Shown piece by piece: positions 123 through 38,340 of a stretch of 38,739 nucleotides of DNA. The first letter of the stretch is position 1, and every line of letters begins with the position of its first letter. Made by a program: the position numbers and the translations under genes. The DNA is from a virus, in the IMG/VR virus record IMGVR_UViG_3300003876_000013, positions 1 through 38,739 of that record; one strand, given 5' to 3'. The notes below the pieces were generated by a model. It searched no databases. It was not told the DNA's origin and saw nothing but the letters and a program-made list of their open reading frames with translations.

Positions 123-353
123 TCATTTAACAGATTTATTTGTGTTTGAAAGAGGAAAAGAAGCCACTTTTTTTAGTAAACGATCAAGAGCCATTTTAGC
201 TGTTATTCCAGAACCTACTCCAAGGAGTTGATAAACCACATCAGGAGCTGAATAAACACCATAATGCTCACATATAACGCAAGCAGCAATCAAAGCTAAT
301 TGAATATAAGTTTTTGATCCCGGAATCTTATCAAGGGTATTAAAAAAATTCAT
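123..353 (-). CDS. Small membrane protein, candidate holin
   Basis: A 76-residue protein starting at an ATG behind a good AAAGGAG site. One clear hydrophobic stretch lies at about residues 16-32, followed by a glycine-rich, weakly hydrophobic stretch at about 42-55 and a basic C-terminus (LLKK, then Ser/Asn/Lys). Size, hydrophobicity and position directly before the M15 endopeptidase on the circular map fit a phage holin, which would time release by forming lesions in the inner membrane. I recognise no family signature, and the second membrane segment is weak. It could be another small membrane protein of the lysis cassette. A CAAGGGT motif lies inside the gene at 332-338. Confidence 0.5.
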   Translation of the reverse strand: MNFFNTLDKIPGSKTYIQLALIAACVICEHYGVYSAPDVVYQLLGVGSGITAKMALDRLLKKVASFPLSNTNKSVK

Positions 354-377
354 TTTGTCTCCTTTTTATGTTAATAG

Positions 378-659
378 TTATCTAAACCAATTAGCTATGC
401 CAGCAATTAAGCCTCCTCCGAGACCTCCTCCAGCCAGCCATTTAGCATTTCTGCTTGTTGTTTTTATGGTATTAACAGCGGCTACTAAACCACCGCTTGA
501 GTCTTTTCCATACAAAGTGGCTTTATGCTCATTGATCTCAACTATGACCGGTGTGAGCATTGCTTTTTCTATAGCTTCGTGCGCTTCGAATTTGTCATCT
601 ATGTATGATTTAACCCCTTCGATTGCTCTATAGAAGTCTTCTTTTGTAATATCAGCCAC
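378..659 (-). CDS. XhlA-like lysis accessory protein, GTG start
   Basis: A 93-residue protein with an acidic, helical N-terminal half (about residues 4-45) and a C-terminal glycine-rich hydrophobic anchor at about 72-91 (WLAGGGLGGGLIAGIANW). Soluble coil plus one C-terminal membrane anchor is the layout of XhlA/haemolysin-type accessory proteins, which work with holins. The start is GTG at 657-659, with AAGGGA six bases upstream and no competing ATG. It sits between a secreted protein and the holin-like gene, which supports a lysis role. The family assignment rests on architecture only. Confidence 0.5.
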   Translation of the reverse strand: MADITKEDFYRAIEGVKSYIDDKFEAHEAIEKAMLTPVIVEINEHKATLYGKDSSGGLVAAVNTIKTTSRNAKWLAGGGLGGGLIAGIANWFR

Positions 660-690
660 AACATATCCCTTGGTAAGAACTACGTTTATA

Positions 691-1864: not shown

Positions 1865-2242
1865 TCACACGTCACAATTAAAGGATTCAGTAACTAAGCA
1901 CATTGGATTTTGAGATGCTGTTTCATGCTGGATATTATAAGTTATATCAGAATGAAGTATGAAATCAAATATGTACAGCGAATTGGATGATAACGTAAGA
2001 CCACTATTCAAGTACATAATTTTTTGATTAGCTCCTGCTTTTGTAGCTATCAACTTAACTAGAGACGGTGTCGCGAGCATCAGTTCAATGCTATGTTTTA
2101 TTGGAGCATTATAGAATTCTTGAAAACCTCTCTTCTGAGGTCGTACTGAAGAACCTAGATCAGAAGAGAACCAATTGGTGTTAGCAGCTAAAGCTACGTC
2201 ATCCCATTTACTTGCTACATTTATTGTGAATATACCTGACAT
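1865..2242 (-). CDS. Hypothetical protein next to tail fibre
   Basis: A 125-residue protein, not recognised. It is soluble by composition, rich in Ser/Asn/Ala with alternating hydrophobic residues suggesting beta structure. It has no signal peptide and no membrane segment. The ATG at 2240-2242 has a strong AAGGAGAT site. It lies directly downstream of the collagen-like fibre gene in the same operon and may be a fibre-associated or receptor-binding component. That is inference from position only. Confidence 0.5.
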   Translation of the reverse strand: MSGIFTINVASKWDDVALAANTNWFSSDLGSSVRPQKRGFQEFYNAPIKHSIELMLATPSLVKLIATKAGANQKIMYLNSGLTLSSNSLYIFDFILHSDITYNIQHETASQNPMCLVTESFNCDV

Positions 2243-2255
2243 AATTAGATCTCCT

Positions 2256-3377
2256 TTATACTATACCATAAAGCTTAAAAGTTCCTGTAGCAATGTTACC
2301 TGAAGCCAGTTTAATTCTCAAGGCATTCACAATGCCTATTTCAAGGCGATTACCTCCCCCTCTATGGTTTTCAACTCTACCAGAGTTTGGAATAGCTTGT
2401 GCTTCCCAACTAACCAAAGTCATAGTGCTTATATTTAAAGGATCCCAAACTCTAATAAGACCAGTAGCAGAATGTCCAGCAACGCTACCGTCCACCTCAG
2501 CTATAGATATGACAAGTTTAGTATCACTACTTGCGCCATTCCCATTTGGTGTAGGTCCAGAAGAACTATTTCCTAGGTTTGAGTGCTGATAATCACCAGT
2601 AGTTTCGTCAAAAGACGAGCCATTATTTGATGAAGTTTGTAAAAAGATCTTTACTGCACTAGATGTTGATTTTACCCCATAAAACCGAAGTTCGTATTGA
2701 TCGTATGCTGATGTTATTAAAGAAGTAAAATCAACAGTTGCTTGATTTGAAATCACTTGTGTTGATAGTAAAACCCCTGAACCAGGAGCTCCATCAACTC
2801 CATCAGCTCCATCAGCTCCATCAGCTCCATCAGCTCCATCAGCTCCAGCTGGACCTGTCGGTCCAGGAGCTCCTGCAGTCAAAGTTAAATCACCTGAAGC
2901 ATCGAATCCAACAAGTTTGTCTGCTCTGTCAGCTACAACGTCTAGAACTTCTACGACTCCAATATCAGGAGTAGCTGTTGCAAACTTGAAAGACCGACTT
3001 ATTGAATCTTGAATCTGTTGAACTAACAAAACAAGTTTATCCATAATAGCTTCTACCGGCTCTACTGGAAAAGAATCAGCTTCAGCTAAATTATCTTGTT
3101 GAGTAAACGGAGCAATTCTTTCAATAACAATACTATGTGTAGATAATGGAGCTGTGTTAAAAGTAACATTAGCTGATTCATTATCACTAGCTACTGCTGT
3201 AGTATGATCATATGTTCCAACGCCATTCAAAACAGAAGTAGTTAATATTCCAGTGGCTGAATCAAGTAGAGTAACAACTAGAGTGCTTGCTAAAAATACT
3301 TTCTTATTAAAAACAAAAAGAACACTAACTGCATTACCTGAGGCTCTTACCACATTGCTTTCTGTAGTTACTGTCAT
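2256..3377 (-). CDS. Collagen-repeat tail fibre protein
   Basis: A 373-residue protein. Residues 1-145 resemble the N-terminal tail-attachment region of T7-like podoviral fibres (VLFVFNKKVFLAS, then IERIAPFTQQDNLAEADSF). Residues about 168-199 form a collagen-like Gly-X-Y tract (GPTGPAGADGADG and onward), expected to make a trimeric shaft. Residues 200-373 form a beta-rich head (YDQYELRFYGVKS, then GTFKLYGIV) like many phage adhesin tips. The gene overlaps the upstream ejection-protein gene by ATGA, with AAGGAG eight bases before the start. The collagen tract is encoded by 9-bp DNA repeats (see 2788-2841). Confidence 0.8.
   Translation of the reverse strand: MTVTTESNVVRASGNAVSVLFVFNKKVFLASTLVVTLLDSATGILTTSVLNGVGTYDHTTAVASDNESANVTFNTAPLSTHSIVIERIAPFTQQDNLAEADSFPVEPVEAIMDKLVLLVQQIQDSISRSFKFATATPDIGVVEVLDVVADRADKLVGFDASGDLTLTAGAPGPTGPAGADGADGADGADGADGVDGAPGSGVLLSTQVISNQATVDFTSLITSAYDQYELRFYGVKSTSSAVKIFLQTSSNNGSSFDETTGDYQHSNLGNSSSGPTPNGNGASSDTKLVISIAEVDGSVAGHSATGLIRVWDPLNISTMTLVSWEAQAIPNSGRVENHRGGGNRLEIGIVNALRIKLASGNIATGTFKLYGIV
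2788..2841 (-). repeat. 9-bp minisatellite encoding collagen tract
   Basis: Six head-to-tail 9-bp units, GCTCCATCA on the plus strand, five perfect and one (2797-2805) with A for G. On the coding strand each unit gives Asp-Gly-Ala. Because the unit is a multiple of three, slippage would lengthen or shorten the fibre shaft without a frameshift. Confidence 0.9.
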
Positions 3378-6211
3378 CTCGCTAACTCCTTACCTAATCT
3401 TTTAAGATTGCCAAGAGGGCTTCCTCCTCCTCGAGGAGTGACTCTACTAGGTTTAACGAAAAATTCTTGATCTTTACTTTTCTTTAAAGTTCTCTCTAAC
3501 CTTGACAAATATCCTGGGCTAAGAAATTCTTGAAAGCTATTAAAAGCCATTGAGTCAAAAACTAATTTAGTATAGAATATATTAGAAAATGGAGTCCATG
3601 AAAGAAGGATATTATATGTTCTTATGGCTACATCATCACCAGCCATAGCCTTAGCCGTGACTTCAGCAATATCTTCAAAAGAACCTAGAACAGGGCCTAA
3701 TGCTTGCATAGCAGGTTTAAAGAAGTGAGGTTCTGCTAATGGAGATAAAATAAAATCACTATAGATACCAAGTACTCCGCTTTGTCTCATAGCATCTAAT
3801 GTTGTAGAAGGGTCTAACGGGTCTCTTGGTTCTCTTCCTTTAAAGATGTCCTTAGCTGCTTGTCCTATATATCCTAGAAAGGTCATACCTCCAACAAACT
3901 GAGCTAACCCAGCGAAATCTTTGGCTTTAAACTCAGGTACATTAGTACCGCTGGCTTTACCTCTAAGCATAGCTTTTTGTCGTATGTCTGCACTTATAGT
4001 CGCCAAGGGCCTAGTTAAAACAGTAACCGGGAATGTCTTAAATTGCATCATGAATCTAGTGAGTTCGCCTAAAACCGTACCGCGTTGTGTCCCTTGATGA
4101 AATATAGCTTTTTCTCTTCCACCTGGAACAGCAATGAAAAAGTCATTTCTGTCAATGAACATGGTTCCTATTTTATCTGACAAAGTATCTCTGAATTCAT
4201 CAATTGCATTTTTAGGGACTACTTTAAAGTTATTTGGATTTGTTAGATCGACTTCACCGACTCTTGCAGTTAAGACTTCTTCTGCTGATTTTCCAAGTAC
4301 TCCACTAGTAGCTAGTTTACTTTGCCCAGAAACCCCTGAAGGTTCTGAATCGTTTTGTTTAACAACAGTAATAGTATCTTTAGCTCCTTTTCCTACTTGC
4401 CTTGAAGGTAATAATTCTTGATATTTCTTATCTGTTTTGAATAAATGCTTTGCTACCTCTTCATCAGACAACTCACTTATCCTATCAGCTGTCATAAAAT
4501 CGTCACCATCTAGTGTATACTTTGTTCGTCTAAACAAATCCCAATCACTATCTGATATATTGAATAGATCCAATAATCTATTAGTTTCAAAATCAAGATT
4601 TGCTTTAGACAGATTAGCTTTACTCGCTATATTGCTAGACATCATCCTAGCTGACATGCTTTTAAGAGCATCGTTCCAAGGGGTTAGCAAATTTGCTTTG
4701 AAATATATTCGTTGCCACCGAGATAATGATCCAACATCTGTTAAATCTGAACCTGATCTTGATAATAAATCACCGACTAAACCGTCTATACCAATCCCCA
4801 TAAGCTTTGCTACTTCTTTAGAATCAGTTCCAACTGAATTTGTGAACGTAGAAACTAAATTTCTAGCTACAGTTCCTGCAGGAATACCCTGAAAACGAGC
4901 TTCAGCAAAAATAAAGGAGATGTCATTAACTGATGTAAGAACAACATTGCCTAAAACAGCCATATTCTTTAATATTCGAGTAACTGAACCTAGTTTAGCG
5001 TAGGTTGGATTCATGATTTGCCTTGTACTTCCATCGACTTCTTTTAATCGATTAGATATAAAAGGGGGCAAACCACTGTCATCTGCTTTTAGATCAGTTT
5101 CAACTAAATCAGAGTGTTTTTTACTCAATTCCTTTTTTGCATTATTAACTGCTTTTATAAGAGTCTTCTTAGGATCAGTTCCTAGCATTTCAGTTAAGAC
5201 TACAGCTCTAGCTTTATGTTCAAAACTAAAGAAAACAGATTCTGATAAGCTTTTATTTCCAGTAGAAAATTCCTCCATGTATTTTAATTGAGATTCAGCA
5301 TTCAAGAACCGAACTCTATTTCTACGACTTATGGAGTCTGGGTTTAAAAACCCATTAGAACCAATAGTTCCTGAAACATCTATATTGTCTTCAGCACCAA
5401 CTGATTTGATATATGTCCCTGATTTTATATCAGCGTATAAACCAGTTAGAAAATCAATATCACTAGATGATCCTGAAAAAGTTTTCCTATCCAATAAAGG
5501 GTGTATTTTACCAACCCACTCTCTAAAAGGAACTCTAGAGACTAAACCTTGATCATGAGATGTTATGCTAAACATAGAACTTGGATGATCATCTATAAGA
5601 GCTCCTGATCTTTTAAGTCTATTTGTTAGTTTAGTATTATATTTTAATATAATCTCTGCGGCTTTCATTGCTCTGGGATCTATTTTTTTATCAATTTTTC
5701 CTGTATATTTAACGAAAAAGGCTTTCACCAAATCTGAATCACGTTTTCCATCAACAAGAACGTCTAGAACATCATTAGCTTCTAGCTCATCTTGAAGTCC
5801 AGCGACGCTTCTTTTATTTAACTGACGTATGCGTCCTTCGGCTGAATCCCTAGAAGCAATGGTAAAGAATCCAGATTCTTTTAATTTAGTAGGATTAGCT
5901 CCAACTAGTAGTGCAGTTAAAGCCTCTTTCGTCTCTTCAGGAGTGAAATTACGCAAGTACCTAGCTACATTCGAGTCTACTCTTTGGTTTAAGAGCTTGT
6001 CGATAGTTCTTTTTTGTATTTCTGCTTTGCGCACTTTTGCATGGGCAAGAACAAAATTCCTAACTTCTTGAGGAGTACTAACTGACATTTTGTCAGATTC
6101 TCCTTTGTAGAATTTAACTAACCTAGCTAATCGTTCTCTGATTGTTTTATCACTAGCATTTGGATCAGCTTCTTTTAAGATAGCTAAACAAGGGGCACTA
6201 AATTTAGCCAT
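3374..6211 (-). CDS. Large internal virion / DNA ejection protein (T7 gp16-position)
   Basis: A 945-residue protein, the last and largest of the ejection-protein block, just before the tail fibre as in T7. The N-terminal half is mixed charged helix. The C-terminal third has features I associate with podoviral ejection proteins: MQFKTFPVTVLTRPL, a hydrophobic stretch LAQFVGGMTFLGYIGQAA, and an FKGREPRDPLDPS turn. I see no lytic transglycosylase or lysozyme motif, although T7 gp16 carries one. TAATG coupling with the upstream gene suggests co-translation. Exact function is inferred from order and size. Confidence 0.6.
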   Translation of the reverse strand: MAKFSAPCLAILKEADPNASDKTIRERLARLVKFYKGESDKMSVSTPQEVRNFVLAHAKVRKAEIQKRTIDKLLNQRVDSNVARYLRNFTPEETKEALTALLVGANPTKLKESGFFTIASRDSAEGRIRQLNKRSVAGLQDELEANDVLDVLVDGKRDSDLVKAFFVKYTGKIDKKIDPRAMKAAEIILKYNTKLTNRLKRSGALIDDHPSSMFSITSHDQGLVSRVPFREWVGKIHPLLDRKTFSGSSSDIDFLTGLYADIKSGTYIKSVGAEDNIDVSGTIGSNGFLNPDSISRRNRVRFLNAESQLKYMEEFSTGNKSLSESVFFSFEHKARAVVLTEMLGTDPKKTLIKAVNNAKKELSKKHSDLVETDLKADDSGLPPFISNRLKEVDGSTRQIMNPTYAKLGSVTRILKNMAVLGNVVLTSVNDISFIFAEARFQGIPAGTVARNLVSTFTNSVGTDSKEVAKLMGIGIDGLVGDLLSRSGSDLTDVGSLSRWQRIYFKANLLTPWNDALKSMSARMMSSNIASKANLSKANLDFETNRLLDLFNISDSDWDLFRRTKYTLDGDDFMTADRISELSDEEVAKHLFKTDKKYQELLPSRQVGKGAKDTITVVKQNDSEPSGVSGQSKLATSGVLGKSAEEVLTARVGEVDLTNPNNFKVVPKNAIDEFRDTLSDKIGTMFIDRNDFFIAVPGGREKAIFHQGTQRGTVLGELTRFMMQFKTFPVTVLTRPLATISADIRQKAMLRGKASGTNVPEFKAKDFAGLAQFVGGMTFLGYIGQAAKDIFKGREPRDPLDPSTTLDAMRQSGVLGIYSDFILSPLAEPHFFKPAMQALGPVLGSFEDIAEVTAKAMAGDDVAIRTYNILLSWTPFSNIFYTKLVFDSMAFNSFQEFLSPGYLSRLERTLKKSKDQEFFVKPSRVTPRGGGSPLGNLKRLGKELAR

Positions 6212-8637
6212 TACTCAACTCCTCCAGTTTTGATTATGCAATTAGTGACATCCGTTGTTGTTGCGCTTTCATTTTCTATAGCAGATAGCTCATCATCAGA
6301 TTCTTTTAGAATTTTTTTTATTTCATCAGCGGCTTCTGGATCTGAATCAGCTAAAGCAGACTCTATCTCTTCTTCAGAAAGCTCTTTTATTCTCTGTTCT
6401 TGATACATATCCACTTCAGGTTCTTCTGCAGTTTTAGCGTCATACGTAACTTCTTCAACCAAGCTATCGGCTTCTATCTCAGCGTCAGCTTCATTTTTTG
6501 TTAGTTGATCAGATTCTTTAGGGACTTTGTATCTTTTTTCAATAGACGAACTAAGTCGGTCTTGATCTTTTTGCTTTTTTTCAATATATTCATCATAGTC
6601 CGGTCTTTTTTTAGTTTCAGCTGTTGTTATAGGAGCCTCAATAGGTGCATCAGTAGGATATCGAGCAAAATCATCAGGATCAAGATATTGCCGGTAACTA
6701 TCTCGCTCTACTAAGATATCTGGTTTATTTGGATCATCAAAATCTAAGAACTTTTCATTTGGAACAATACGCTCTGTACTAGGTTTGATTCCAAGGATAT
6801 TATTAACTTCATTGAATAACTGAGCAGGAGGTAAGTTTCTTGCTTGTAAGGCATTTACATTGTCAAGGAGTTTTACTAATTTAGTTCCTATATTTGGATA
6901 TTCTGAAGCAACAATTCCTATGCGTAAAAGAGCATCAACTATACGCTTAGTTGCTATATCTTCAGCACTTTTTGCTCCTGTAATGTTTTTATTTATGATC
7001 TTGATAAATTGATTAAAAGATATAGGTTCAATCTTAGCGCGTCTCTTGGCTCTTTCTTTTCTAGCCTCTTTTCTAAATATAGCTATTTTTTTTTCTAGAA
7101 ACTCAATGTCTCTAACTGTACCGGTTTTCTCTAATTCTCGTAAGTTAATAGTATAGCTATCTGCAACACTATCCCAGGATGCTGCATTATCAAATCCCGA
7201 GGAGCCTTGGGCATCCAACCGATTTATTTCTGATAAACTACCTTTGTCTTTTTTTTGCTTTTTTTCTAACTTTTGGATTTTTTTGTCGCGTCTTTTTTGT
7301 AATTTCTCAAATTTTGCTCTAGCTATGTGTTTTTCTTCAATAGGCAAATCAGATTGCTGAATCTCTTGATTTTTTAAAAAAGCGGCTGTGCTTTCATCCT
7401 CTAATTTAGATATGTTGTCAGAGAGTTCAGACAAAGGACCTTTTTTATCTGAAAGAGAATTGTCAATTGGAGCTGCTTCAGGCACCTTTTCTACTGTTTT
7501 TTCAGGAAAAGCTTGAGCAGGCCCAATGTTATCTTTCAATTCATTAATTTTTATAGATCGCCCTTTAATTAAAGCATCTATTTTTTCTATAGCTGAATCT
7601 TTATCTTCTCTAGATAAATCAGACGCTTCAATATCTTCTATTTCTTTAGAGGCTTTTAGATTAGCTGTTTCCAACTCAATTATATTATTTGGTGTGTTAA
7701 TTGTTTTGGATAACTTAGCGGCATCCTCTGCTATAGTAACTGTATTTGTTTCTTCAAGCTGATCAGCAGCCATTTTTGTTATTATTGCATCATCTTCTGG
7801 GGTAATACCTTCCAAATCAGAAGGATTGTTTTTCTTTATTTCTATTAAATCGTCATATACTTTGTTTTCAAGGACTCTTTTTCTACCTGATGTCCGTATC
7901 TTCTCTGATCTATTTTTCAAGGCATCTCCAGAAATACCAATAATAGATCGTATACCAGCACCGAAAGCCGCTCCGTATAAGATGCTAGTAGCTCCTTCTG
8001 TAGCACCAAAATCAGATTGAAGTTGGTCTCCTATAGCAGCAGCTGGAGCAATTGCTAAAGCGGTGCCAACACCGCCCTCGACAGCTCCAGCCGCCACCCT
8101 AGAAAGGTTCTTGGCTAACCCAATTGCTTTAACTGTCTGTATAGTAGGTAGTAGTAGTAGAGTTAAGCTTATTGGATCAGCCATTTCCCCTAAAAATTCA
8201 AATGAGAAACCAGCTGCATTATTTAAAAATCCTTTAGTTCTATCAAGGGTTAAGCGATTACTTATTTCTCGTTTTTTGTTATCATGTAATAATGCAGCTC
8301 CTTCAGAAGTTCCTGGTTTACTAAACTTTAATTCACCAGGTATGCCGAACTTCTCGTTTAAAGCCTCGGCAGAAATAACCTCTAAAGAGTCATCTGGAAC
8401 ATCAGCTAAACCAAGTTGTTCAAATAACTTAAACCCTACTTCTAAATAAGGGTTTTCCAATTGGCCTGTTACTTTTCTTAAATCAGCGGCTTTATTTAAT
8501 GATGACAAAGGAGATAACTCAGAACCTCGCTCAAAAAAAGCTGGTACAAACTCACCTGCAGTAGCTGGAATGTCAGAAGCTATAGGAGCTTGTTCGTCAA
8601 AGTTCTGAAGAGTGCTGAATTTAAAAGGCCTAGCCAT
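6211..8637 (-). CDS. Internal virion protein with hydrophobic middle and charged coiled-coil C-terminus
   Basis: An 808-residue protein. Residues about 150-240 contain hydrophobic, alanine/glycine-rich stretches (ISLTLLLLPTIQTV, VGTALAIAPAAAIG, SILYGAAFGAG) that could insert in a membrane. From about 330 onward it is very rich in Glu/Lys/Asp, with long predicted coiled coils (IQKLEKKQKKDKGS), and it ends in an acidic tail. A membrane-active part joined to a long coil suits a protein that leaves the capsid and builds an ejection channel. I do not recognise a named family. A GGGAGG site precedes the ATG. CAAGGGT lies at 8244-8250. Confidence 0.55.
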   Translation of the reverse strand: MARPFKFSTLQNFDEQAPIASDIPATAGEFVPAFFERGSELSPLSSLNKAADLRKVTGQLENPYLEVGFKLFEQLGLADVPDDSLEVISAEALNEKFGIPGELKFSKPGTSEGAALLHDNKKREISNRLTLDRTKGFLNNAAGFSFEFLGEMADPISLTLLLLPTIQTVKAIGLAKNLSRVAAGAVEGGVGTALAIAPAAAIGDQLQSDFGATEGATSILYGAAFGAGIRSIIGISGDALKNRSEKIRTSGRKRVLENKVYDDLIEIKKNNPSDLEGITPEDDAIITKMAADQLEETNTVTIAEDAAKLSKTINTPNNIIELETANLKASKEIEDIEASDLSREDKDSAIEKIDALIKGRSIKINELKDNIGPAQAFPEKTVEKVPEAAPIDNSLSDKKGPLSELSDNISKLEDESTAAFLKNQEIQQSDLPIEEKHIARAKFEKLQKRRDKKIQKLEKKQKKDKGSLSEINRLDAQGSSGFDNAASWDSVADSYTINLRELEKTGTVRDIEFLEKKIAIFRKEARKERAKRRAKIEPISFNQFIKIINKNITGAKSAEDIATKRIVDALLRIGIVASEYPNIGTKLVKLLDNVNALQARNLPPAQLFNEVNNILGIKPSTERIVPNEKFLDFDDPNKPDILVERDSYRQYLDPDDFARYPTDAPIEAPITTAETKKRPDYDEYIEKKQKDQDRLSSSIEKRYKVPKESDQLTKNEADAEIEADSLVEEVTYDAKTAEEPEVDMYQEQRIKELSEEEIESALADSDPEAADEIKKILKESDDELSAIENESATTTDVTNCIIKTGGVE

Positions 8638-10971: not shown

Positions 10972-11453
10972 TAGCGGCCTCCCTCCAACACTCTACGCGG
11001 TTCAGGTGGATTTAAATCAGAAACTGTTTGTAAACCAGTGATAGCAGCAGAACCTAAAGCTTGTGCTACAGCTATATCTCCTTTGAATCTCTCTAATCCA
11101 GCAGAGCGACGCTTACCAAAGGCTATTACTTCAGTATTAAATCGCTGAGCCGCTTGGTCTAGCTCAAAAGAAACGCGATCATCCACAAATATGTCAGTGA
11201 AGCCAGTCAAACCAGAACCTCCAGCTAATGCTTTATTTCTACCTTGTTTTCTAATAAAGTTTCGTTTTGATCTAGCTCTATTGAGGACTCCAGCTTCTTC
11301 TGTTAATCTAGCTTCTTGCTCTAATGTATCAGCATTATCATTGCGTAAACCTTGGGCTTCTAGGCCACTTTGGAATTGCTGAGCAGCTGTGAAAGCTCCA
11401 AGAGACGCCGTAAGCAGGTCATTAAAATTTAAATCAGATTCAAGAAAATCCAT
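10971..11453 (-). CDS. Small internal virion protein (T7 gp14-position)
   Basis: A 160-residue protein. An N-terminal alanine-rich helix (LLTASLGAFTAAQQFQSG) leads into a charged helical middle (LEQEARLTEEAGVLNRARSKRNF), a glycine-rich link (LAGGSGLTGFTDI) and a C-terminal alanine-rich helix (AVAQALGSAAITGLQ). Many podoviruses carry a protein of this size and style between the nozzle and the larger core proteins, corresponding to T7 gp14, part of the trans-envelope ejection conduit. The ribosome site (AGGTTA) is weaker than its neighbours'. Assignment rests on order and composition. Confidence 0.6.
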   Translation of the reverse strand: MDFLESDLNFNDLLTASLGAFTAAQQFQSGLEAQGLRNDNADTLEQEARLTEEAGVLNRARSKRNFIRKQGRNKALAGGSGLTGFTDIFVDDRVSFELDQAAQRFNTEVIAFGKRRSAGLERFKGDIAVAQALGSAAITGLQTVSDLNPPEPRRVLEGGR

Positions 11454-11462
11454 AAAAATAAC

Positions 11463-14098: not shown

Positions 14099-14111
14099 AT
14101 AAACTCCTAAA

Positions 14112-22135: not shown

Positions 22136-22156
22136 TCTATATTCTAAACATATTTG

Positions 22157-24563: not shown

Positions 24564-24580
24564 ATTTCCTTGGATCGTAA

Positions 24581-24703
24581 GTTTAGTCTTCTATCTTATA
24601 ATTCTCTTAGTGAGGTAGTTTAGTCTTCTATCTTATAATTCTCTTAGTGAGGTAATTCTCTTAGTGAGGTAATTTATGAGTGAGGTAATTTATGAGTGAC
24701 GCA
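24581..24703 (+). repeat. Nested tandem duplications over the start of the next gene
   Basis: A 37-bp unit is repeated exactly (24581-24617, 24618-24654). Its last 17 bases appear a third time (24655-24671). A 16-bp unit built on ATTTATGAGTGAGGTA (24672-24687) then repeats imperfectly (24688-24703) and supplies the real start codon at 24692. Each 37-bp unit holds a TATAAT, and each short unit holds a GAGG ribosome-site core. Repeat slippage would change promoter or ribosome-site number. Confidence 0.9.
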
Positions 24704-27321: not shown

Positions 27322-27711
27322 ATGATTAATCAATTTAATTTAGTTGCTCAATTCCATGAAACATTCGAAATAGGTTACTTCAGAGGACCACGTAGCCTAC
27401 CTGAAGAAGAAAAAGATTTCAGGGTCCGCTGTTTGAATGAAGAAGTTGGTGAGTACATAGAAGCAAAAACAATAGAAGCTGAGCTCGATGCTATTGTAGA
27501 CATAGTTTACTTCGCTATGGGAACAGCCTACCGCCAAGGTTTGGACTTCAACGAAGCTTTTAAGAGAGTTCATGAAGCAAATATGGCAAAAGAGCTCGTG
27601 AGTGAAAAAAATCCTTCAAAAAGATATTTTCATCTTGATGTCGTAAAACCCTTGGACTGGAAACCTCCTAACTTAAAGGACCTATGTGATGAAGACAATA
27701 CAAGAACTTAA
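27322..27711 (+). CDS. MazG-fold nucleotide pyrophosphohydrolase
   Basis: A 129-residue single-domain MazG-like protein. The metal-binding pattern is visible as Glu40, Glu41, Glu44 in CLNEEVGEYIEA, then Glu54, Asp56 and Asp60 in EAELDAIVDIVYFAMGTAYRQG. The family hydrolyses nucleoside triphosphates to monophosphates. Next to a dCMP-type hydroxymethylase candidate, it could act as a dCTP pyrophosphatase like T4 gp56, keeping plain cytosine out of new DNA. It could also act on ppGpp or dUTP. An inverted CAAGGGT lies at 27648-27654. Confidence 0.75.
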   Translation: MINQFNLVAQFHETFEIGYFRGPRSLPEEEKDFRVRCLNEEVGEYIEAKTIEAELDAIVDIVYFAMGTAYRQGLDFNEAFKRVHEANMAKELVSEKNPSKRYFHLDVVKPLDWKPPNLKDLCDEDNTRT

Positions 27712-29532: not shown

Positions 29533-31330
29533 GTTGTCAGGAGCTAAAATTCTAGGCCTAGACACTGAAACTCGTGATCCTAATTTAAAAGAACGAGGAC
29601 CTGGAGGAGCTAGAAATGATGGAGAACTTGTCGGAATCAGTCTCGCCGTACCAGAGGGGCAAAAGTGGTACTTTCCAATTGCCCATCAAGGGGGAGGAAA
29701 CTTGGATCGTGAAGCAGTTTTGCAATGGTTACGGGATGTCTTCAAAGCACAAGATGAGTGTTCTAAAGTCGGGGCTAACATACTCTATGATCTTGAATGG
29801 CTCCATAACGCAGGAGTCCGCGTGCCTGGTCCATTCGTCGATATTCAGGTTGCAGAACCACTTCTTGATGAAGATAAATACGGAGGATATTCCTTACAGA
29901 ATCTTTCGAAGTATTATTTGGGAGAACAAAAAAAAGAATCCCTGTTGGAAGAGGCTGCAAAAGCATTTGGAGTCGACCCAAAAGGAGGATTGTGGAAACT
30001 TCCAGCTAAGTATGTCGGACCTTATGCAGAAGATGATGCATTGCTCCCACTTAAAATATGGGAGAAGCAAAAAAAGAAGCTTAAAGAACAAAATCTTGAA
30101 GATGTTTTTCAGTTAGAGTCTGATCTAATTCCAATATTGCTTGATGTTAAAATGAGAGGAGTAAGAGTAAATGTAGAGAGAGCAGAGGAGTTAAACTATG
30201 CTTTAATAAACACTGAACTGGCCTTAGTAGACAAAATAAGCAAGTTAGCTAAATTCCCTGTTAACCCTTGGTCACCAAAGCATTGTGTTAGGATTTTTGA
30301 AGATAACAAAATAGCATACCCAAGAACAGAACCAACACAATCATCCGCTAATGGCAATCCATCTATAACAGGAGATTGGTTAAAGAATCACGAAAACCCA
30401 ATTTGTGAGATGCTTGCTGAGTTCAGAAAAACAAACAAAATGCGCAGAGATTTTATTGAAGGAACTATTATTAAACAAAACACTAACGGAAGGATTTATT
30501 GTCAATTTCATCAACTTAGGGCTGATTCTAAAGGAACTAGGTCTGGGCGCTTCTCCTCCTCTAACCCAAATCTGCAACAACAACCTTCGAGAGACTCTTA
30601 TTGGGGACCTCTTATTAGATCACTCTATATACCTGAAGAACACCATATATGGTCGCGTCATGACTATAGTCAACAAGAACCTCGAGTATTAATACATTTT
30701 GCTTGTCAACCTTTTGTAATAAAAAGTAAAGGATGGAACTTTCCAGAAGGGCTTCCAGGAGCTAGAGAAGCAGCTCAACGCTTTATCGATGATCCTACAA
30801 CAGATTATCACCAAATGACTGTTGAAGAGATTGCACCATACAAAACAATAACAAGGAATGTAGGTAAACAAGTAAATTTAGGAATGGCTTATAGAATGCA
30901 GGTGTATAAGCTATCTCTTGAACTAAAAGTATCTCAGTCAGAAGCTCAGATAATACTTAATGCTTATCATAAAGCAAAGCCTTACGTTGAACTCTTGGCT
31001 CAGATTTGCGAACATACTGCCTTAACAAAGAAGAAGATAAGAACATTACTTGGTAGAGTGAGGCATTTTAAATCAGCTAGAGACAAGCCATATCATGCAA
31101 TTAATGCTGAGATTCAAGGATCATCAGCTGATATAACTAAAAAAGCAATGATTGATTGTTACAATGCTGGATATTTGCCTCACATCCAAGTACATGATGA
31201 ACTCAATTTTTCTATAACTGAAGGAAGAGAGGTGAAAGAAATAAACGAACTTATGGAAAATGGAGTAAAGATGCGATTACCTTTATTAGTAGACTCTATT
31301 CAAGGGGAGAATTGGGGTGAATGTAAATGA
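29471..31330 (+). CDS. polA: Family A DNA polymerase
   Basis: A 619-residue protein, ATG at 29471 with GGGAG upstream, overlapping the deaminase gene. The proofreading 3'-5' exonuclease has Exo I LGLDTETRD (about 29-37), Exo II ANILYDLEWL and Exo III YAEDDALL. The polymerase has motif A HDYSQQEPRVLIHF, motif B RNVGKQVNLGMAYRM and motif C HIQVHDELNF. The residue matching E. coli Phe762 is Leu (K-x-x-N-L), and the usual Tyr-Gly of motif B is Tyr-Arg. A short TTLGRV-type linker replaces a longer loop. It is the replicative polymerase of the phage. Confidence 0.95.
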   Translation: MLQGCLFPPFSNWKAPTEFPRLSGAKILGLDTETRDPNLKERGPGGARNDGELVGISLAVPEGQKWYFPIAHQGGGNLDREAVLQWLRDVFKAQDECSKVGANILYDLEWLHNAGVRVPGPFVDIQVAEPLLDEDKYGGYSLQNLSKYYLGEQKKESLLEEAAKAFGVDPKGGLWKLPAKYVGPYAEDDALLPLKIWEKQKKKLKEQNLEDVFQLESDLIPILLDVKMRGVRVNVERAEELNYALINTELALVDKISKLAKFPVNPWSPKHCVRIFEDNKIAYPRTEPTQSSANGNPSITGDWLKNHENPICEMLAEFRKTNKMRRDFIEGTIIKQNTNGRIYCQFHQLRADSKGTRSGRFSSSNPNLQQQPSRDSYWGPLIRSLYIPEEHHIWSRHDYSQQEPRVLIHFACQPFVIKSKGWNFPEGLPGAREAAQRFIDDPTTDYHQMTVEEIAPYKTITRNVGKQVNLGMAYRMQVYKLSLELKVSQSEAQIILNAYHKAKPYVELLAQICEHTALTKKKIRTLLGRVRHFKSARDKPYHAINAEIQGSSADITKKAMIDCYNAGYLPHIQVHDELNFSITEGREVKEINELMENGVKMRLPLLVDSIQGENWGECK

Positions 31331-31743
31331 TTGAATCAAAAGAATGCGCAAAGATAAAGCCACATATCAAGGGTCAATATATCAGGATAGAGAACTCTGT
31401 ATCAGTTGGCTTCCCTGATATAGTTCTTTGTTTAGATAGCAAAATACGTTTAATAGAAGCAAAAGTAGTTCATGGTGTTCGTGAACCTTATTTTTGGTTA
31501 GAAAAATCACAAAAGATTTGGCATTTGCACCATAAAAGAGCTAATTGTTCTGCTTTATTTATATTGTTTCATAAAAATGAAATTCATTTTATTGAAGGGA
31601 TCCATATTCCAGAAGCTGATATGACTTGGAGCCCTTCTAAAGGTAAATGGAAGGTAGAAATTGAGCAATTTTTCTACATAACACGCAGTTTTGACAGAGT
31701 CTCTAAGAATTGGGCCGATTTAAACGCTTTACTTTGGGGGTAA
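31327..31743 (+). CDS. PD-(D/E)XK nuclease, VRR-NUC/resolvase-like
   Basis: A 138-residue protein, ATGA-coupled to the polymerase. It has the nuclease core GFPDIVLCLDSKIRLIEAK (about 28-46): the Gly-x-Pro-Asp, then Glu-x-Lys of PD-(D/E)XK enzymes. A preceding IENSVSVG strand and a later QKIWHLHHKRA helix with Gln are as in VRR-NUC or T7 endonuclease I-type proteins. It probably cuts branched DNA made during replication or before packaging. CAAGGGT lies at 31368-31374. Confidence 0.75.
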   Translation: MIESKECAKIKPHIKGQYIRIENSVSVGFPDIVLCLDSKIRLIEAKVVHGVREPYFWLEKSQKIWHLHHKRANCSALFILFHKNEIHFIEGIHIPEADMTWSPSKGKWKVEIEQFFYITRSFDRVSKNWADLNALLWG

Positions 31744-32345: not shown

Positions 32346-33100
32346 ATGACAAAATCAAAAGAAGTAGTTCAAAAAAAAGATGAAGCTTTGGTAGTATCTG
32401 ATGATATGATGGCAGATGTTGGAGTAACTGGCTTCGAGAGCATGACCTCTAAAGACATGGAAATTCCTTTCATGACTATTCTTGAGTCAGGAAGCCCTCA
32501 ATGCAAAAAATCAAATGATCAATATATTGCTGGAGCAGAAGAAGGTATGATCATGAATACTTTTACTCAGAAAGTGTTTGATGGTGATCTTGGAATAGAG
32601 ATCATACCCTGCTTCTTTGAAAAAGTAATGTTGGAATGGAAACCTGCGATATTGACGACAAAGGTCGGGTTGTAATGGGTAATGGAAACTTCCTTCAAGA
32701 GACTGGACAGTACTATGTTCTCTTATTGGAAAAAGATAAGCCAGCAGACAAGGTTTGCATCACAATGGCTTCAACTCGATTAAAAACTTCAAGAAGATGG
32801 AATCGCATAATGTCCTTACGCCTTGGTAAGCGCAAGGATGGGTCTGATTTTGTAAAACCAATGTTCTCATCTTCATACCAAATGACTTTGCTTGGTAAAC
32901 AAGCTGGAGATAACTCATGGTGGATTTGGGAAGTTGAAGAGAAAACTCCAGTAACTGATCCAAACCTATTCAGAATGGCTATGGCTTTTGCGACTGAATG
33001 TTCCAAGGGTTTGGTTAAAGTTACTCAAGATGCTGGAACTTCTGACGATGCTGGAACTTCTGACGATGCTGGAACTTCTGACGATTCTGTACCTTTCTAA
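32346..33100 (+). pseudogene. SSB-like gene split by an internal loss
   Basis: Two frames hold one protein. Part A (from 32346, reading MTKSKEVVQKKDEALVV to FFEKVMLEWKP) runs out of sense near 32645. Part B resumes in another frame at DIDDKGRVVMGNG and runs to 33100. About 15-20 residues expected between them seem lost, with a frame change. The C-terminus is an acidic linker ending DDSVPF, like the DDDIPF tip of bacterial SSB that recruits partner proteins. The body (ITMASTRLKTSRRWNRI, then SSSYQMTLLGKQ) is beta-rich. Probable single-strand DNA-binding protein. The break is either an assembly error or a real mutation. Confidence 0.55.
33029..33082 (+). repeat. 18-bp tandem repeat, three exact copies, in SSB-like tail
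   Basis: GATGCTGGAACTTCTGAC at 33029-33046, 33047-33064 and 33065-33082, encoding DAGTSD three times just before the acidic tip. In-frame copy change would alter tail length only. Confidence 0.9.
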
Positions 33101-33112: not shown

Positions 33113-34582
33113 ATGTTTGACGCGCGTAGGTTTATGAACCTATTTGCGGGACTCACTAGAGCTTATGGACAGTACAAAATCAATGCTAACGAAGTTAGGG
33201 AGGATGGTAAAATAGGTGGAAGAGCTTCGACTATAAAAGGTAAAGTTACTGAAGAGTTATGGATAAAACATATCGAAGGAAAAACTTCGTTAGGTATAGT
33301 TCCTATAAATGATAACTCTTCATGTAAATTTGGAGCTATAGATATAGACGACTATAAACTTGATTACGTCAGTGTAATAAAGAAATTAAAGTCGCTTCCG
33401 AATGTTCAATTGGTCCCCTGTGTAACTAAATCAGGGGGCCTCCATCTCTATTTATTTCTTTCTGACTGGGTTTCTGCTAAAATTGTACAAAAAAAGCTTA
33501 AAGAGATAGCAGCCGCAATAGGTTTTGGAAACTGTGAGATATTTCCTAAACAAACGGTTATTTTAACAGAGAGAGGAGATGTTGGTGGTTGGATAAGTAT
33601 GCCTTATTTTGGAAATACTCGGCATATGATAGATGAAGAAGGAAAACCTTGCTCTAAAGAGGAGTTTCTATTATTTGCAGAAAACAGTAAAGTAGATCTT
33701 TTAGCTGTATCTAAACTTAAAATAGAATCCTCTAATGATCTATCTGATGGGCCTCCATGTCTACAACATCTAATCTTTCAGAAGTTTCCCAAAGGAACCA
33801 GAAATGATGGTTTATTTAATGTAGGTGTTTATATGCGAAAAGCTTTTCCTGATTCATGGAAAGATGAAGTGCATGCAGCTAACCACCGTTATATGAATCC
33901 TCCTTTAGGAACTGAAGAAGTAACAATGATAATAAAAAGCTTAGGTAGGAAAAATTATCAATATAGTTGCAACAAAGACCCAATAGTGAATCACTGTAAT
34001 GCTGGTGTTTGTAAGAACAGAAAATATGGTGTAGATGAAGAAAGTTCTATGCCTCAATTACACTCACTAACAAAGTTTGACACAGCCCCACCTACCTGGT
34101 TCATAGACGTTGATGGAGGAGGTCGAATAGAGCTATCTACAGATGATCTTCAAAATCAAAGAAGATTCCAGAAGCGCTGTCTAGAATCTTTAAACATGAT
34201 TCCAAAAAAGATGACAGAACGCGCCTGGAATCAATTATTAACGTCTCTTTTAGATACACTGATAGTAGTAGAAATGCCTATTGATGCCTCAGCTAAAGGT
34301 CAGTTGATGGAATTAATAGAGCGCTTCTGCTGTTCGAAAGCCCAAGCAAAAAAGAAAGAAGAAATAATATTAGGGAAACCTTGGTTCAATAGTCTAAATA
34401 ATAGACATTATTTCAGAAGTTCTGATTTGCTGAACTATTTAGATAGACACCGATTCAAAGATTTTAAAATCCATGAAATAACTACTGTTATAAAAAACAA
34501 TAATGGTGAGCATCATTTCTGGAATATTAAAGGAAAAGGAGTCAACTGCTGGTCACTTAAATTTATTCTGAGGACTGATTAA
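33113..34582 (+). CDS. Archaeo-eukaryotic-type primase (AEP), TOTE-like, with PriCT-like part
   Basis: A 489-residue protein with AAGGAG upstream. The AEP catalytic pattern is Asp77-x-Asp79 (FGAIDIDD), then K-S-G-G-L-H (106-111), EIFPKQ (142-147) and GGWISMPYFGNTR (158-170). The last two are as in AEP domains of TOTE-type proteins. Next comes a PriCT-like segment LQHLIFQKFPKGTRNDGLFNVGVYMRKAF, then a Cys-containing stretch. There is no Walker motif, so no built-in helicase. It should prime DNA synthesis, working with the separate helicases downstream. Confidence 0.8.
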   Translation: MFDARRFMNLFAGLTRAYGQYKINANEVREDGKIGGRASTIKGKVTEELWIKHIEGKTSLGIVPINDNSSCKFGAIDIDDYKLDYVSVIKKLKSLPNVQLVPCVTKSGGLHLYLFLSDWVSAKIVQKKLKEIAAAIGFGNCEIFPKQTVILTERGDVGGWISMPYFGNTRHMIDEEGKPCSKEEFLLFAENSKVDLLAVSKLKIESSNDLSDGPPCLQHLIFQKFPKGTRNDGLFNVGVYMRKAFPDSWKDEVHAANHRYMNPPLGTEEVTMIIKSLGRKNYQYSCNKDPIVNHCNAGVCKNRKYGVDEESSMPQLHSLTKFDTAPPTWFIDVDGGGRIELSTDDLQNQRRFQKRCLESLNMIPKKMTERAWNQLLTSLLDTLIVVEMPIDASAKGQLMELIERFCCSKAQAKKKEEIILGKPWFNSLNNRHYFRSSDLLNYLDRHRFKDFKIHEITTVIKNNNGEHHFWNIKGKGVNCWSLKFILRTD

Positions 34583-34827: not shown

Positions 34828-36238
34828 TATAGTAAATGACTATTTAAAAAAAGGAGGAAAATCAGATAAAGTAGCTTACCTAGCTTTTACTAGAAGAGCT
34901 GCTTTAGAAGCTATAAACAAAATACAAGAGGTAACTGGTTATTCAAAGAAACAATTTCCTTACTTTAGAACGATACATAGTCTGTGCTTCAGAGAACTTC
35001 TTCTAACAAAGACAGACATAGTTCAAAAGGAACATTTAGTTGAACTAGGAGATGAGCTTGGGCTCGACATTCGTTGTAGAGGTTCTTTCGAAGAAGGAGG
35101 AATCTGGGGATTCAGCGACGGAGATAAAATAGTGACCCTTGAAAACATGTCACGGGTTAATATGACTTCATTGAAGCAAATTTGGGAGGATGATGATAAT
35201 GAAATCTTATGGGAGCAGTTGGAGACTTTTAGATCACGCTATACCAAGTATAAAGAAGAGAAAAACCTTGTTGATTTTACAGACATGCTCGATTTGTTGT
35301 CAAAAAACCCGATTAAAAAAGAATTTGATCTCGTTATTGTGGATGAGGCACAAGACTTGTCAAAGATGCAATGGAACGTTATTAATTCTATTAATACCAA
35401 ACGATTATATACCGCCGGAGATGACGATCAAGCCATATATACCTGGTCAGGAGCTGACGTAAATTCATTTATTGATTTTAAAGGAGATATAGAAAACTTG
35501 ATTCAAAGTCACAGGTTGCCGTATACTATATGCAAATTAGCTACTGAGCTAGCAACTACGATCAAAAATAGGATTCATGAAAAGAAAATACATCCTACAG
35601 AAGAAGAAGGATCAATACATAGGATTGTTGACTTAGATGAGCTATCCTTCGACCAAGGTTCATGGTTGCTATTAGCTAGGAACGCATATCAATTAGCTGA
35701 ATATGAGGAGCTCTGCATAACTAGAGGTGTTCCATATGAAATAGCAGCAACACGACGCTACAGAATAGGGATAATAAAAGCAATAAAGATATGGACTTCT
35801 TTAAGAAAAGGGTATTGGCATTCTGGAAAAGAACTCAAGAAATTACTAAAGCACTTGTCTTTTAAAAAAAATTCTATGTTAGAAGATAACAAAAACTATA
35901 ACATGGATTATCTAGTTCAAAGATTATCAGTCAAAAACAGTGGAGAGTGGTTCGATGTTCTAACTGATATTGGTTATGAAGAAATTGAATTTTTCAGAAG
36001 TGCTTTAAGAAGAAAGGAGGATATTGAGTTTCCAAGGGTTAGGATATCAACAATACACGGGGCTAAAGGAGCCGAAGCAGATCATGTTGTTGTTATGACC
36101 GATATTTCGAGGAAAGCTTTTGATCGTATGGAAGAGAATCTCGATGATGAAACTCGTGTTTTTTATGTAGCTATAACAAGAGCTAAATCATCTTTATATA
36201 TAGTAAGCCCAACCTCAAGGTATTATTATGATATATAG
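34763..36238 (+). CDS. UvrD/PcrA-type superfamily 1 DNA helicase
   Basis: A 491-residue protein, ATG with GGGAGG upstream. Motifs in order: Walker A GPPGTGKTTR (10-19), motif Ia YLAFTRRAA, motif II LVIVDEAQDLSK, motif III AGDDDQAIYTWSGA, motif IV-type SHRLP, motif V ISTIHGAKGAEADHVVV, motif VI RVFYVAITRAKSSLYI. It is shorter than cellular UvrD (about 720), having lost part of the accessory subdomains, as is usual in phages. It unwinds DNA 3'-5' for repair or replication. CAAGGGT lies at 36033, with an inverted copy at 35135. Confidence 0.93.
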   Translation: MESMKRKILGPPGTGKTTRLTNIVNDYLKKGGKSDKVAYLAFTRRAALEAINKIQEVTGYSKKQFPYFRTIHSLCFRELLLTKTDIVQKEHLVELGDELGLDIRCRGSFEEGGIWGFSDGDKIVTLENMSRVNMTSLKQIWEDDDNEILWEQLETFRSRYTKYKEEKNLVDFTDMLDLLSKNPIKKEFDLVIVDEAQDLSKMQWNVINSINTKRLYTAGDDDQAIYTWSGADVNSFIDFKGDIENLIQSHRLPYTICKLATELATTIKNRIHEKKIHPTEEEGSIHRIVDLDELSFDQGSWLLLARNAYQLAEYEELCITRGVPYEIAATRRYRIGIIKAIKIWTSLRKGYWHSGKELKKLLKHLSFKKNSMLEDNKNYNMDYLVQRLSVKNSGEWFDVLTDIGYEEIEFFRSALRRKEDIEFPRVRISTIHGAKGAEADHVVVMTDISRKAFDRMEENLDDETRVFYVAITRAKSSLYIVSPTSRYYYDI

Positions 36239-36755
36239 TGACTACTGGGATTTATTAAACATAGATCTTAGAAGAGATTCTACTAAGATCATTAAAGCTG
36301 GAGACAAGTACGATGTAGTAGCTTTTTTTCAGAATACTTGGTTTATTCGTGGAACTGAAACAGATGTTATAATAAGATACACAAAGGACCAAGAGTATCA
36401 ACAGAAGTTAATAGCACAAACAATGACTGGACGGCGCCTTCTTTCTGCTTTTACTTCATCATTTAGGAATATCTTTTGGGATAATTGCACACAGTTATCT
36501 ATCGACGATCCAAATGGTAGTTTTGATGCTAACAGAGAGCATGTTCTTGAAATAATTGCTAGAATAAAACCAAAAATAGTAATAGGTTTCGGAGCTGAAT
36601 CTCGCTTAGTTATACAAGAACTGCTGCCTTTATTATACAGAACTGGTGTTAAAAAAGTTTTGTTCTTCAAACATCCAAATGCAAGAGGAGTTACTTCAAT
36701 TGAGTTGCGTGAATTTGCTATGGATGTTATTGAAACTTGGAAGGAGTTAAAATGA
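36228..36755 (+). CDS. Uracil-DNA glycosylase-superfamily-like protein
   Basis: A 175-residue protein overlapping the helicase stop. The segment RIKPKIVIGFGAESRLVIQELL followed by KKVLFFKHPNARG resembles the strand-helix core and the late H-P-x-A loop of UDG-like proteins, where the His-Pro loop inserts into DNA. An early catalytic G-x-D-P-G or G-E-x-P-G motif is not visible, so it may be inactive, act on another base, or be only a fold relative. Position between two helicases fits a repair or base-checking role. Confidence 0.4.
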   Translation: MIYSDYWDLLNIDLRRDSTKIIKAGDKYDVVAFFQNTWFIRGTETDVIIRYTKDQEYQQKLIAQTMTGRRLLSAFTSSFRNIFWDNCTQLSIDDPNGSFDANREHVLEIIARIKPKIVIGFGAESRLVIQELLPLLYRTGVKKVLFFKHPNARGVTSIELREFAMDVIETWKELK

Positions 36756-36840
36756 AATAAATTATATAGAATAATTAAGTCATACCAGTATATGACTCAT
36801 TAAATCAGAATGAATCCTAGGTTAAATAAGGAGTCAACAA

Positions 36841-38340
36841 ATGACAGAAGAATCCTCAGATGACAAAATATTAACCAAAAAATATGAATTTAAGACAACG
36901 CCTAACCCGCATCAACTAGCTATACTGAAAAAGTCGTGGTCAGATAAGTATTATGGTTTGTTTTGGCAAATGAGAACAAGAAAAACAAAAGTAATGATTG
37001 ATAATGCAGGTATCTTGTTTGAAAGAGACAAGATAAATATGTGCATAGCTATACCAAAAAAAGGATCCTACCATAATTGGGAGAAACAAGTCTCTCTTCA
37101 CTTACCTGATAGAATAGCAACAAAAGTGTTCAGATGGATCAATGGCAAATGGAATTTGATGCACGAAAACAAAGTCAAAGATTCTAAAATATTATACTTT
37201 TACATAATAAATGTAGAGGCTTTTAGTACAGGTTCTTTATTAGCTACCTTCAAATCTATACTAAAAAATAACAAAGTCTTTTTAGTAGTTGATGAATCAA
37301 CGTCAATAAAAAATAAATCAGCAAGAACCGTAAATGTAAAAGACCTTGGTTACTATGCTACTTACAAGAGAATATTAACAGGAACACCGATTCCACGCTC
37401 ACCTTTAGATATCTTTGAACAATGTGAATTTCTAAAAAAGGGAGCACTTGGGTTTAGCAGTTACTACGCTTTCAAAGCTAAATATGTTATTACAAAAAGA
37501 ATATACATATCCCAAAGAGATAAAAGAACTGGGACTAAAAAAAGAAGAGGGATTGATGTAGTGTCTGGATATCACAACCTAGATGATCTATATAAGAGGT
37601 TGGCTCCTTTTAGTTCTAGGTTATTAAGAAAGGATTGCGGCGATACTTCAGAAAAAGATTACCAAACAAGATTAGTTGAATTAACTCCTGAACAGAGAAA
37701 AGCTTACATAGAGATCGCTGAACAAGGGTTACATATCTGTGAGGAGGGAACAGCTTCAGTTTTACATCAATTGACGTTGAGGATGCGCTTACATGAAATA
37801 TGTTGCGGCCAATTAACCCTTGATGATAGGAAAACTATTTACTTTCCTACTAACAAGAAGAAAGAACTTGATGATATAATAGAAGAGTGTGGTGGTAAAA
37901 TGATTATCTGGGCTCATTATACGGCTAATATAAGAGACCTAGAAGATCATCTCAAAAATAAATATGGTAAAGATAGTGTAGTTTCTTTCTACGGAGCAAC
38001 TAGCGCAGAAGCCAGGGTAGAGGCAGAAAGAAGTTTCCAGGCTGGAGACTCTCCTGTACGTTTCTTTCTCTCCAATCAGAGCACGGGAGGTTATGGCCTC
38101 ACCCTGACAGCTGCTGAGCTTATTGTCTACTATTCAAACACCCATAATCTAGAACACAGAGATCAAAGTGAAGAAAGAGCAGATGGTCTAGACAAAAATA
38201 ATAACATACCAGTTATTGATCTAGTGTGTAGAGATACAGAAGACCAGAGAATAGCTGACAATTTAAGAAATAAAAATATTACTTCTGGTTTACTTTTCAA
38301 GGAATCTCCTAAGAAATGGTTCAAGATTCCTAAGAAGTAG
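36841..38340 (+). CDS. SNF2-type superfamily 2 helicase
   Basis: A 499-residue protein with AAGGAG upstream. Motifs: Q-like PNPHQ (21-25), Walker A variant MRTRKTK (44-50; most relatives have MGTGKT, so two glycines are arginines), motif Ia IAIPKKG, motif II VVDEST, motif III LTGTPIP, motif IV MIIWAHY, motif V STGGYGLTLTAAE and motif VI RDQSEERADG. Lys49 and Thr50 needed for ATP are kept. Phage SNF2 proteins often accompany PolA and UvrD. CAAGGGT lies at 37723, with an inverted copy at 37816. Confidence 0.9.
   Translation: MTEESSDDKILTKKYEFKTTPNPHQLAILKKSWSDKYYGLFWQMRTRKTKVMIDNAGILFERDKINMCIAIPKKGSYHNWEKQVSLHLPDRIATKVFRWINGKWNLMHENKVKDSKILYFYIINVEAFSTGSLLATFKSILKNNKVFLVVDESTSIKNKSARTVNVKDLGYYATYKRILTGTPIPRSPLDIFEQCEFLKKGALGFSSYYAFKAKYVITKRIYISQRDKRTGTKKRRGIDVVSGYHNLDDLYKRLAPFSSRLLRKDCGDTSEKDYQTRLVELTPEQRKAYIEIAEQGLHICEEGTASVLHQLTLRMRLHEICCGQLTLDDRKTIYFPTNKKKELDDIIEECGGKMIIWAHYTANIRDLEDHLKNKYGKDSVVSFYGATSAEARVEAERSFQAGDSPVRFFLSNQSTGGYGLTLTAAELIVYYSNTHNLEHRDQSEERADGLDKNNNIPVIDLVCRDTEDQRIADNLRNKNITSGLLFKESPKKWFKIPKK

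Follow-up and report, generated by a model that had tools for sequence, protein, structure and literature searches.

An exact seven-base word dispersed through a podovirus genome, possibly a signal read by a DNA-handling enzyme

Why should a small phage genome carry the same seven bases again and again, on both strands and in any gene? The question is raised by the IMG/VR virus record IMGVR_UViG_3300003876_000013, which was analysed here at its full length of 38,739 bases (hereafter, the window) and in which the word CAAGGGT is dispersed from position 332 to position 37822. By its gene content the window is a podovirus, and it is probably a small bacterial virus of marine origin. A preliminary description, made from the letters alone, had reported the motif as YCAAGGGTT and had proposed several classes of reader for it. 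The signal is real and strong. The pattern suggests that CAAGGGT is a mark recognized by an enzyme that handles DNA, possibly one of the host repair machinery. Literature searches on CAAGGGTT in phages, on HTVC010P motifs and on over-represented motifs, judged by the titles listed first, found no published account of this word.

The copies number 26, of which 16 lie on the plus strand and 10 on the minus strand, at the positions first reported, whereas Markov models of order 2 and order 3 predict 3.1 and 3.0, respectively (observed-to-expected ratio, O/E, 8.7). With one copy every 1.5 kb on average, CAAGGGT is the highest-scoring 7-mer of the window, and no other 7-mer is equally enriched; the next independent one, AGGAGCT, reaches 30 copies against 8.4 expected. 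The top 8-mer is CAAGGGTT, with 18 copies against 1.1–1.2 expected and a score of 66. The best score of any 8-mer in 60 genomes simulated with an order-3 model was 23.5, so that an artefact of base composition is ruled out. The enrichment belongs to the exact word, since its one-mismatch variants, taken together, occur 72 times against 73.2 expected (O/E 0.98). A protein motif or a codon bias is ruled out in turn by a synonymous-codon shuffle of the 53 open reading frames (ORFs), in which the 23 real copies compare with 2.9 ± 1.7 (maximum 9 in 1000 runs), and by the occupation of all three reading frames. Those 23 sites lie in ORFs and three are non-coding; sites in all frames and in non-coding gaps had been described. 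Non-coding DNA amounts to 6.0% of the genome, and the probability of finding three or more sites there is 0.20. Even spacing was not found, the intervals between sites being random-like. The site-free region noticed at 1.7–8.2 kb is real, but a gap of that size (6.5 kb) has a probability of 0.24 and is not significant.

The 7-base core was correctly recognized in the preliminary description, as was the lack of G at either flank (positions -1 and +7), but the site is longer than the proposed 9-mer. Informative positions run from -4 to +8, giving a site of about TTAYCAAGGGTTW, and the summed flank information of 4.5 bits compares with 1.7 ± 0.3 in random sets, none of which, among 1000, was as high. 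All six flank positions are matched by four of the 26 sites (20030, 22300, 23049, and 23592), five positions by ten sites, and two to four by the other 12. Two of the three non-coding sites match six of six flank positions and the third matches five. The four full-consensus sites are clustered at 20.0–23.6 kb, in or around the early region; by our own arithmetic, the chance that four of 26 sites fall within six neighbouring ones is about 0.02.

The closest relative found, L002 (IMGVR_UViG_3300009702_000086; 23,940 bases), has a terminase 73% identical to that of the window and is syntenic with it from 1865 to 21596. It contains CAAGGGT seven times against 1.2 expected (Poisson 0.0003), a modest excess, and all seven copies lie on the strand that carries most of the left-arm sites of the window. 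It had been suggested that related phages might keep the site positions while codons drift. In the aligned genes, some of them poorly conserved, no position is shared: six window sites can be compared (plus strand, 8244–8250, 9765–9771, 10244–10250, 12692–12698, and 15938–15944; minus strand, 10318–10324), and each faces an L002 position without a site, as do in reverse the four comparable sites of the seven in L002. None of the ten compared sites encodes the same residues in both phages, although one of them shares two of three. The positions therefore turn over while the word stays, and this alignment, together with the codon shuffle, supports the original view of a DNA-level signal.

A more distant relative, L113 (IMGVR_UViG_3300049919_000088; 36,764 bases), was found through its primase (43% identity) and shares the gene order of both arms of the window. 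Its top 8-mer is a different word, CAGGGTCT, present in 18 copies (11 and 7 on the two strands) against 1.0 expected (O/E 17), with one-mismatch variants at expectation (O/E 1.11). With its flanks this word reads ACAGGGTCTT, and the flank information is again significant (p 0.004). In 17 other contigs of the family (12 taken to 40,000 bases and five of 16.7–20 kb), no dispersed exact 8-mer scores above 25.9 (36.2 uncorrected for local clusters), compared with 66–69 in the two carriers. For gapped (4+4) words the maximum in relatives is 33, in G015, against 43 in L113. In all, a strong private word is present in two of the 20 contigs examined, and L002 shares CAAGGGT at lower strength. Among terminase and polymerase relatives with at least 3.5 kb of fetched DNA, L002 aside, the largest CAAGGGT excess is that of L052 (7 against 2.4), while the primase relative L108 has 10 against 4.1. 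Among the listed viral contigs matching TATCAAGGGTTTAA, beyond the searched match itself, the best is L296, with 6 copies against 1.4 in 14 kb. An SNF2 helicase scan yielded no confirmed locus. CAAGGGT shows no link to any core gene of these phages.

The exact core, the indifference to gene context, the turnover of positions and the different word of another lineage lead to the view that CAAGGGT is a genome-wide recognition word for DNA processing, selected and maintained in density, and not a gene-regulatory site. Our favoured reading, which we put forward tentatively and at less than even chances, is that of a Chi-like signal whose reader is an end-resection enzyme of the host. In this mechanism, a host helicase-nuclease of the RecBCD or AddAB type would enter the phage DNA from an end or a break, would read the word on one strand, stop degrading and hand the molecule over for recombination, and the phage would keep the word at its density of one per 1.5 kb on average. 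Among its 53 ORFs, no known recombinase was recognized (scans of PHROGs, Pfam or both for each; several ORFs are without known function). We infer the host origin of the reader and its action on DNA ends, as well as the correspondence of the polarity flip described below to genome ends or an origin. The Chi-like reading is favoured because the counts match those of Chi in phage P1, the single phage used as control: the first 50 kb of P1 contain GCTGGTGG 27 times (15 on the plus and 12 on the minus strand, O/E 6.8) as the top 8-mer, with a one-mismatch O/E of 0.75. Density and O/E are therefore similar in both cases, and Chi in P1, T5 and Rec- lambdoids is likewise a short, exact, asymmetric word on both strands, with core mismatches that are not enriched. 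Phages without a recombinase or a RecBCD inhibitor are described as over-representing the Chi of their host, T5-like and P1-like phages most of all (PMC3784561). The different word of L113 and the lack of one of this strength in 17 contigs are as expected if the host sets the word, and a host-set word would explain, in addition, the missing tie to a core phage gene and the indifference to position. The word itself differs from the Chi of E. coli and from that of Caulobacter, described as GCGGTGGT, to which CAAGGGT bears no resemblance.

Several observations weigh against this reading. The flanks are informative in the window while those of Chi are uninformative in P1 (p 0.74; single control phage), so that, of the Chi-like proposal, the statistical match stands as the closest found and the flanks depart from it; informative flanks look more like a protein site of 12–13 bp, and Chi does not predict the full-consensus cluster at 20.0–23.6 kb. 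One single-mismatch variant, CAAGGGG, is enriched (8 against 1.6). CAAGGGT ranks only ninth among the 7-mers of L002, and L113 alone is without strand polarity. In addition, a host rich in the word was not encountered: ATCAAGGGTT, present in 8 copies in the 38.7 kb of the window, is not dense in any of 385 alphaproteobacterial and 369 gammaproteobacterial genomes (maximum about 13 per Mb), although a 10-mer count in two classes and 754 genomes has little power to reveal a word whose O/E is 2–3. In samples of five proteobacterial genomes picked for high counts, the O/E of CAAGGGT is 1.1–1.9; the search in Bacteroidia covered a single Flavobacteriales genome, with 4 copies.

The same flanks direct attention to a reader encoded by the phage. 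The word may be the genome-wide site of a sequence-specific double-strand DNA-binding protein involved in silencing, compaction, segregation or packaging order, which we regard as a real possibility, though on balance a doubtful one. An invariant 7-bp core with graded flanks over 12–13 bp and the grouping of the four full-consensus sites around the early region are in agreement with it, and the number of sites, 26, is that described for the L5-type phage TipsytheTRex (PMC9283540). On the contrary, one-mismatch cores together are not enriched, the right arm lacks transcription polarity, sites are not significantly concentrated in gaps, and none falls at 20338–21084, where the arms diverge. The candidate readers considered were the winged-helix-like products of 21084 and 23862, the two-zinc-finger-like product of 25880 and the small early product of 21655. 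The ORF at 23862–24503 (plus strand) encodes a 213-amino acid protein modelled with a winged-helix-like core at about residues 91–170 (block pLDDT 78–95), and it belongs to a family of early proteins that occurs throughout this group of phages. The ORF at 21084–21596 (plus strand) encodes a 170-amino acid protein whose structure model is of low confidence; by profile comparison it is probably related, though remotely, to the 23862 family (hhalign E 7.7e-6, probability 84). Its only relative was found in L002, so that it occurs in just the two CAAGGGT phages; nonetheless, this is not independent evidence, because L002 is the closest relative found. Members of the 23862 family itself are encoded by relatives devoid of such a word as well. 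Against the VIA list, which bears only on the families it contains, the top rows for the 23862 model are ORC/Cdc6 chains and an unrelated methyltransferase (Z about 5). Foldseek gave no significant match for either protein (nothing at E <= 0.001 for 23862), and a search of solved structures with the 23862 family gave one chance-level match. The product of 25880–26311 (143 amino acids) contains two CxxC...CSPxC zinc-finger-like units, is weakly like NinG/HNH proteins and has no match in the other family contigs compared. The products of 21655 and 22224, also proposed as binders, gave no significant matches, and no relatives of 21084, 21655 or 25880 were found among named phages. The early winged-helix-like family (LPKQA...TRQ.P.RIF.YY) has two members in several loci, and no PHROG or Pfam name shared by them was found.

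In a broader form of a phage-encoded reader, to which we give a rather low probability, members of the family would adopt and switch private address words of 8–13 bp (TTAYCAAGGGTTW in the window and L002, ACAGGGTCTT in L113) that guide the phage's own machinery for replication, resection or packaging along its DNA. Such words would be kept by selection on density and strand, not on position, as a phage counterpart of Chi or KOPS.

The strand on which the word is found shows some polarity along the genome. As first described, nine of the ten left-arm sites share one orientation (9 antisense, 1 sense), while both orientations occur in the right arm (9 antisense, 7 sense). To the left of 22.6 kb the word is on the plus strand at 332–338 (antisense in ORF 123–353, in the Thr-Leu-Asp frame), 1710–1716, the five plus-strand positions compared above with L002, 18313–18319, 20030–20036 (non-coding, flanked by the small and the large terminase gene), 21921–21927 (non-coding, just past ORF 21655–21909, with five of six flank positions) and 22300–22306, the last before the flip; 10318–10324 is the sole minus-strand site. 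Beyond that point the minus strand carries 23049–23055, the first after the flip, 23229–23235, 23592–23598 (non-coding), 25657–25663, 26669–26675, 27648–27654, 30264–30270, 35135–35141, and 37816–37822, and the plus strand 25442–25448, 31368–31374, 33004–33010, 36033–36039, and 37723–37729. The resulting contrast of 11 plus and 1 minus with 5 plus and 9 minus gives a Fisher value of 0.005 for a split picked after seeing the data, and an arc permutation test gives p 0.043. With the seven sites of L002 added, the figures become 18/1 and 5/9 (p 0.0004). Other splits are weaker, namely the transcription arms (0.037) and the putative origin segment with its antipode (0.037).

The polarity flips across an AT-rich non-coding segment at 22413–22880, with 23.5% GC in its lowest 200 bases, a 20-nucleotide direct repeat (22472 and 22526) and AT palindromes at about 22682–22717. 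The flip lies 2 kb from the divergence of transcription, and processing that starts at genome ends or at an origin accounts for the polarity somewhat better than transcription does; the segment is a possible origin or genome end. In LUZ24, which has the same layout, terminal repeats are found between the small terminase and the early genes. The contig ends of relatives were considered as a pointer to the genome ends and discarded, their starts being scattered. In the non-coding gap to the left of the segment, at 22023–22140, there are three copies of a 23-nucleotide G+C-rich repeat (TCGATCGCAGACAATCGC...), and four imperfect TAATTCTCTTAGTGAGGTA-like repeats occupy 24559–24692, the gap before ORF 24692–25327.

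The flip of polarity at such a segment also speaks for primase start sites, another of the classes first proposed. The window encodes at 33113–34582 (plus strand) an AEP (TOTE-type) primase with a PriCT_1 domain, presumably the template-reading domain, and the word may be the template recognition sequence that sets the primer starts of this enzyme. The proposal is possible and has a phage AEP precedent: the AEP PrimPol of phage NrS-1 is described as using an 8-nucleotide template site, TTTGGTTA (PMC8718748; length in PMC7102993), likewise an asymmetric word, which has GGTTA in common with CAAGGGTTA, a 9-mer present in 9 copies in the window. The primases of the two phages differ, however, and the NrS-1 enzyme is described as using short GTG sites as well. 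The word does not follow the primase across relatives, since those with 52–55% identical primases are without a comparable word, and we consider a primase site unlikely. A further comparison is offered by T7, which has a different type of primase: GGGTC, which we take to be the T7 primase site, occurs 94 times against 66 expected, with no polarity around the assumed origin position.

The orientation of the left-arm sites also recalls the L5-type stoperators, dispersed and oriented sites where the repressor of a lysogen stops transcription. Cluster A mycobacteriophages such as L5 and TipsytheTRex share with the window 20–30 dispersed asymmetric sites of 12–14 bp with invariant core positions, in a motif that varies between relatives. 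Nevertheless, stoperators are described as oriented with transcription and placed mostly in short intergenic spaces (PMC9283540, PMC6550527), and neither defining feature, transcription polarity in both arms or intergenic placement, is found here: the right-arm sites are 7 sense and 9 antisense, all but three of the 26 sites fall within ORFs, and the divergence of the arms is free of sites. Nor was an integrase or a repressor recognized in the 53 ORFs (PHROGs/Pfam), many of which are matchless, so an unfamiliar repressor is possible. The stoperator proposal is accordingly considered very improbable.

A comparable likelihood, slighter if anything, is given to the word as a mark of site-specific single-strand nicks, as in tf, T5 and phiKMV-like phages. 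Like the tf and LUZ24 sites, the word is exact, dispersed and asymmetric in a two-arm podovirus with the terminase beside the early genes, and the L002 sites all lie on one strand. The putative LUZ24 sites have informative flanks too (7 sites, p 0.02). The 14 nicks of phage tf are reported to lie in TACTRTGMC, with few near-variants, and all such sites of tf and its relatives to be on one strand, with similar positions within the LUZ24 group (PMC3517423). In LUZ24, TACTATGAC is indeed found 7 times on the plus strand and never on the minus strand. The window uses both strands, with opposite-strand pairs 74 and 93 bases apart, and its positions are not shared with L002. As for a modification site, the remaining suggestion, the window encodes two class I methyltransferase-like proteins (25328 and 26322); no match identifies either of them as a DNA methylase, and 26322 is also present in relatives without the word.

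The implications depend on the reader. Should the word prove Chi-like, the recombination word of the host bacterium could be read from the phage genome alone, which could in turn help to identify that host. Should a phage protein be the reader, phages of a group found in many metagenomes would possess a genome-wide address system of a new kind, and the pair formed by the window and L113 would be a natural switch of specificity. Under either reading, such cases can be told from the background at little cost by ranking the exact words of phage genomes.

Other words met in the survey are of a different nature. AGACTTA in G015, G011 and G012 (7-mer score up to 33.7) was considered as a private word and is read as codon context, because sister codon words are also raised and some of the sites are homologous. 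CAAGGCCA in L341 was ruled out as a phage word, being spread across the whole host genome. The primase relative L122 contains at 748–2345 eleven GCCGGTAAAGT cores on one strand within 1.6 kb, several of them 19–20 bases apart, in an iteron- or promoter-like cluster. In L344, a Mesorhizobium contig, TTCCGGAATGGATCCCCGAC is dispersed in both orientations over 187–20892 and is probably a repeat family.

With respect to the genome as a whole, the first and last 90 bases of the record are identical (1–90 and 38650–38739). This exact terminal repeat points to a probably complete, circularised assembly of about 38,650 bases, and it does not place the true physical ends. No DNA-level match to any named phage was found for the first 25 kb. 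The best 20 of 185 named records for the portal protein are Pelagibacter phages, with 36–39% identity. A structural arm on the minus strand, up to 20.3 kb, encodes tail fibre, internal virion proteins, tubular tail proteins, head, portal and terminase, and an early and replication arm on the plus strand encodes ThyA, dCMP deaminase, DNA polymerase A, the AEP primase, and UvrD and SNF2 helicases. Many of the 53 ORFs are without a match, and the conserved products of 31710 and 32346/32636 have no known function assigned. Two conserved genes, those of the major head protein (14619–15382) and of a Pam3 gp34-like protein (32346–33100), are each divided between two overlapping frames. These correspond to consecutive portions of a single family profile, which suggests assembly indels or programmed frameshifts.

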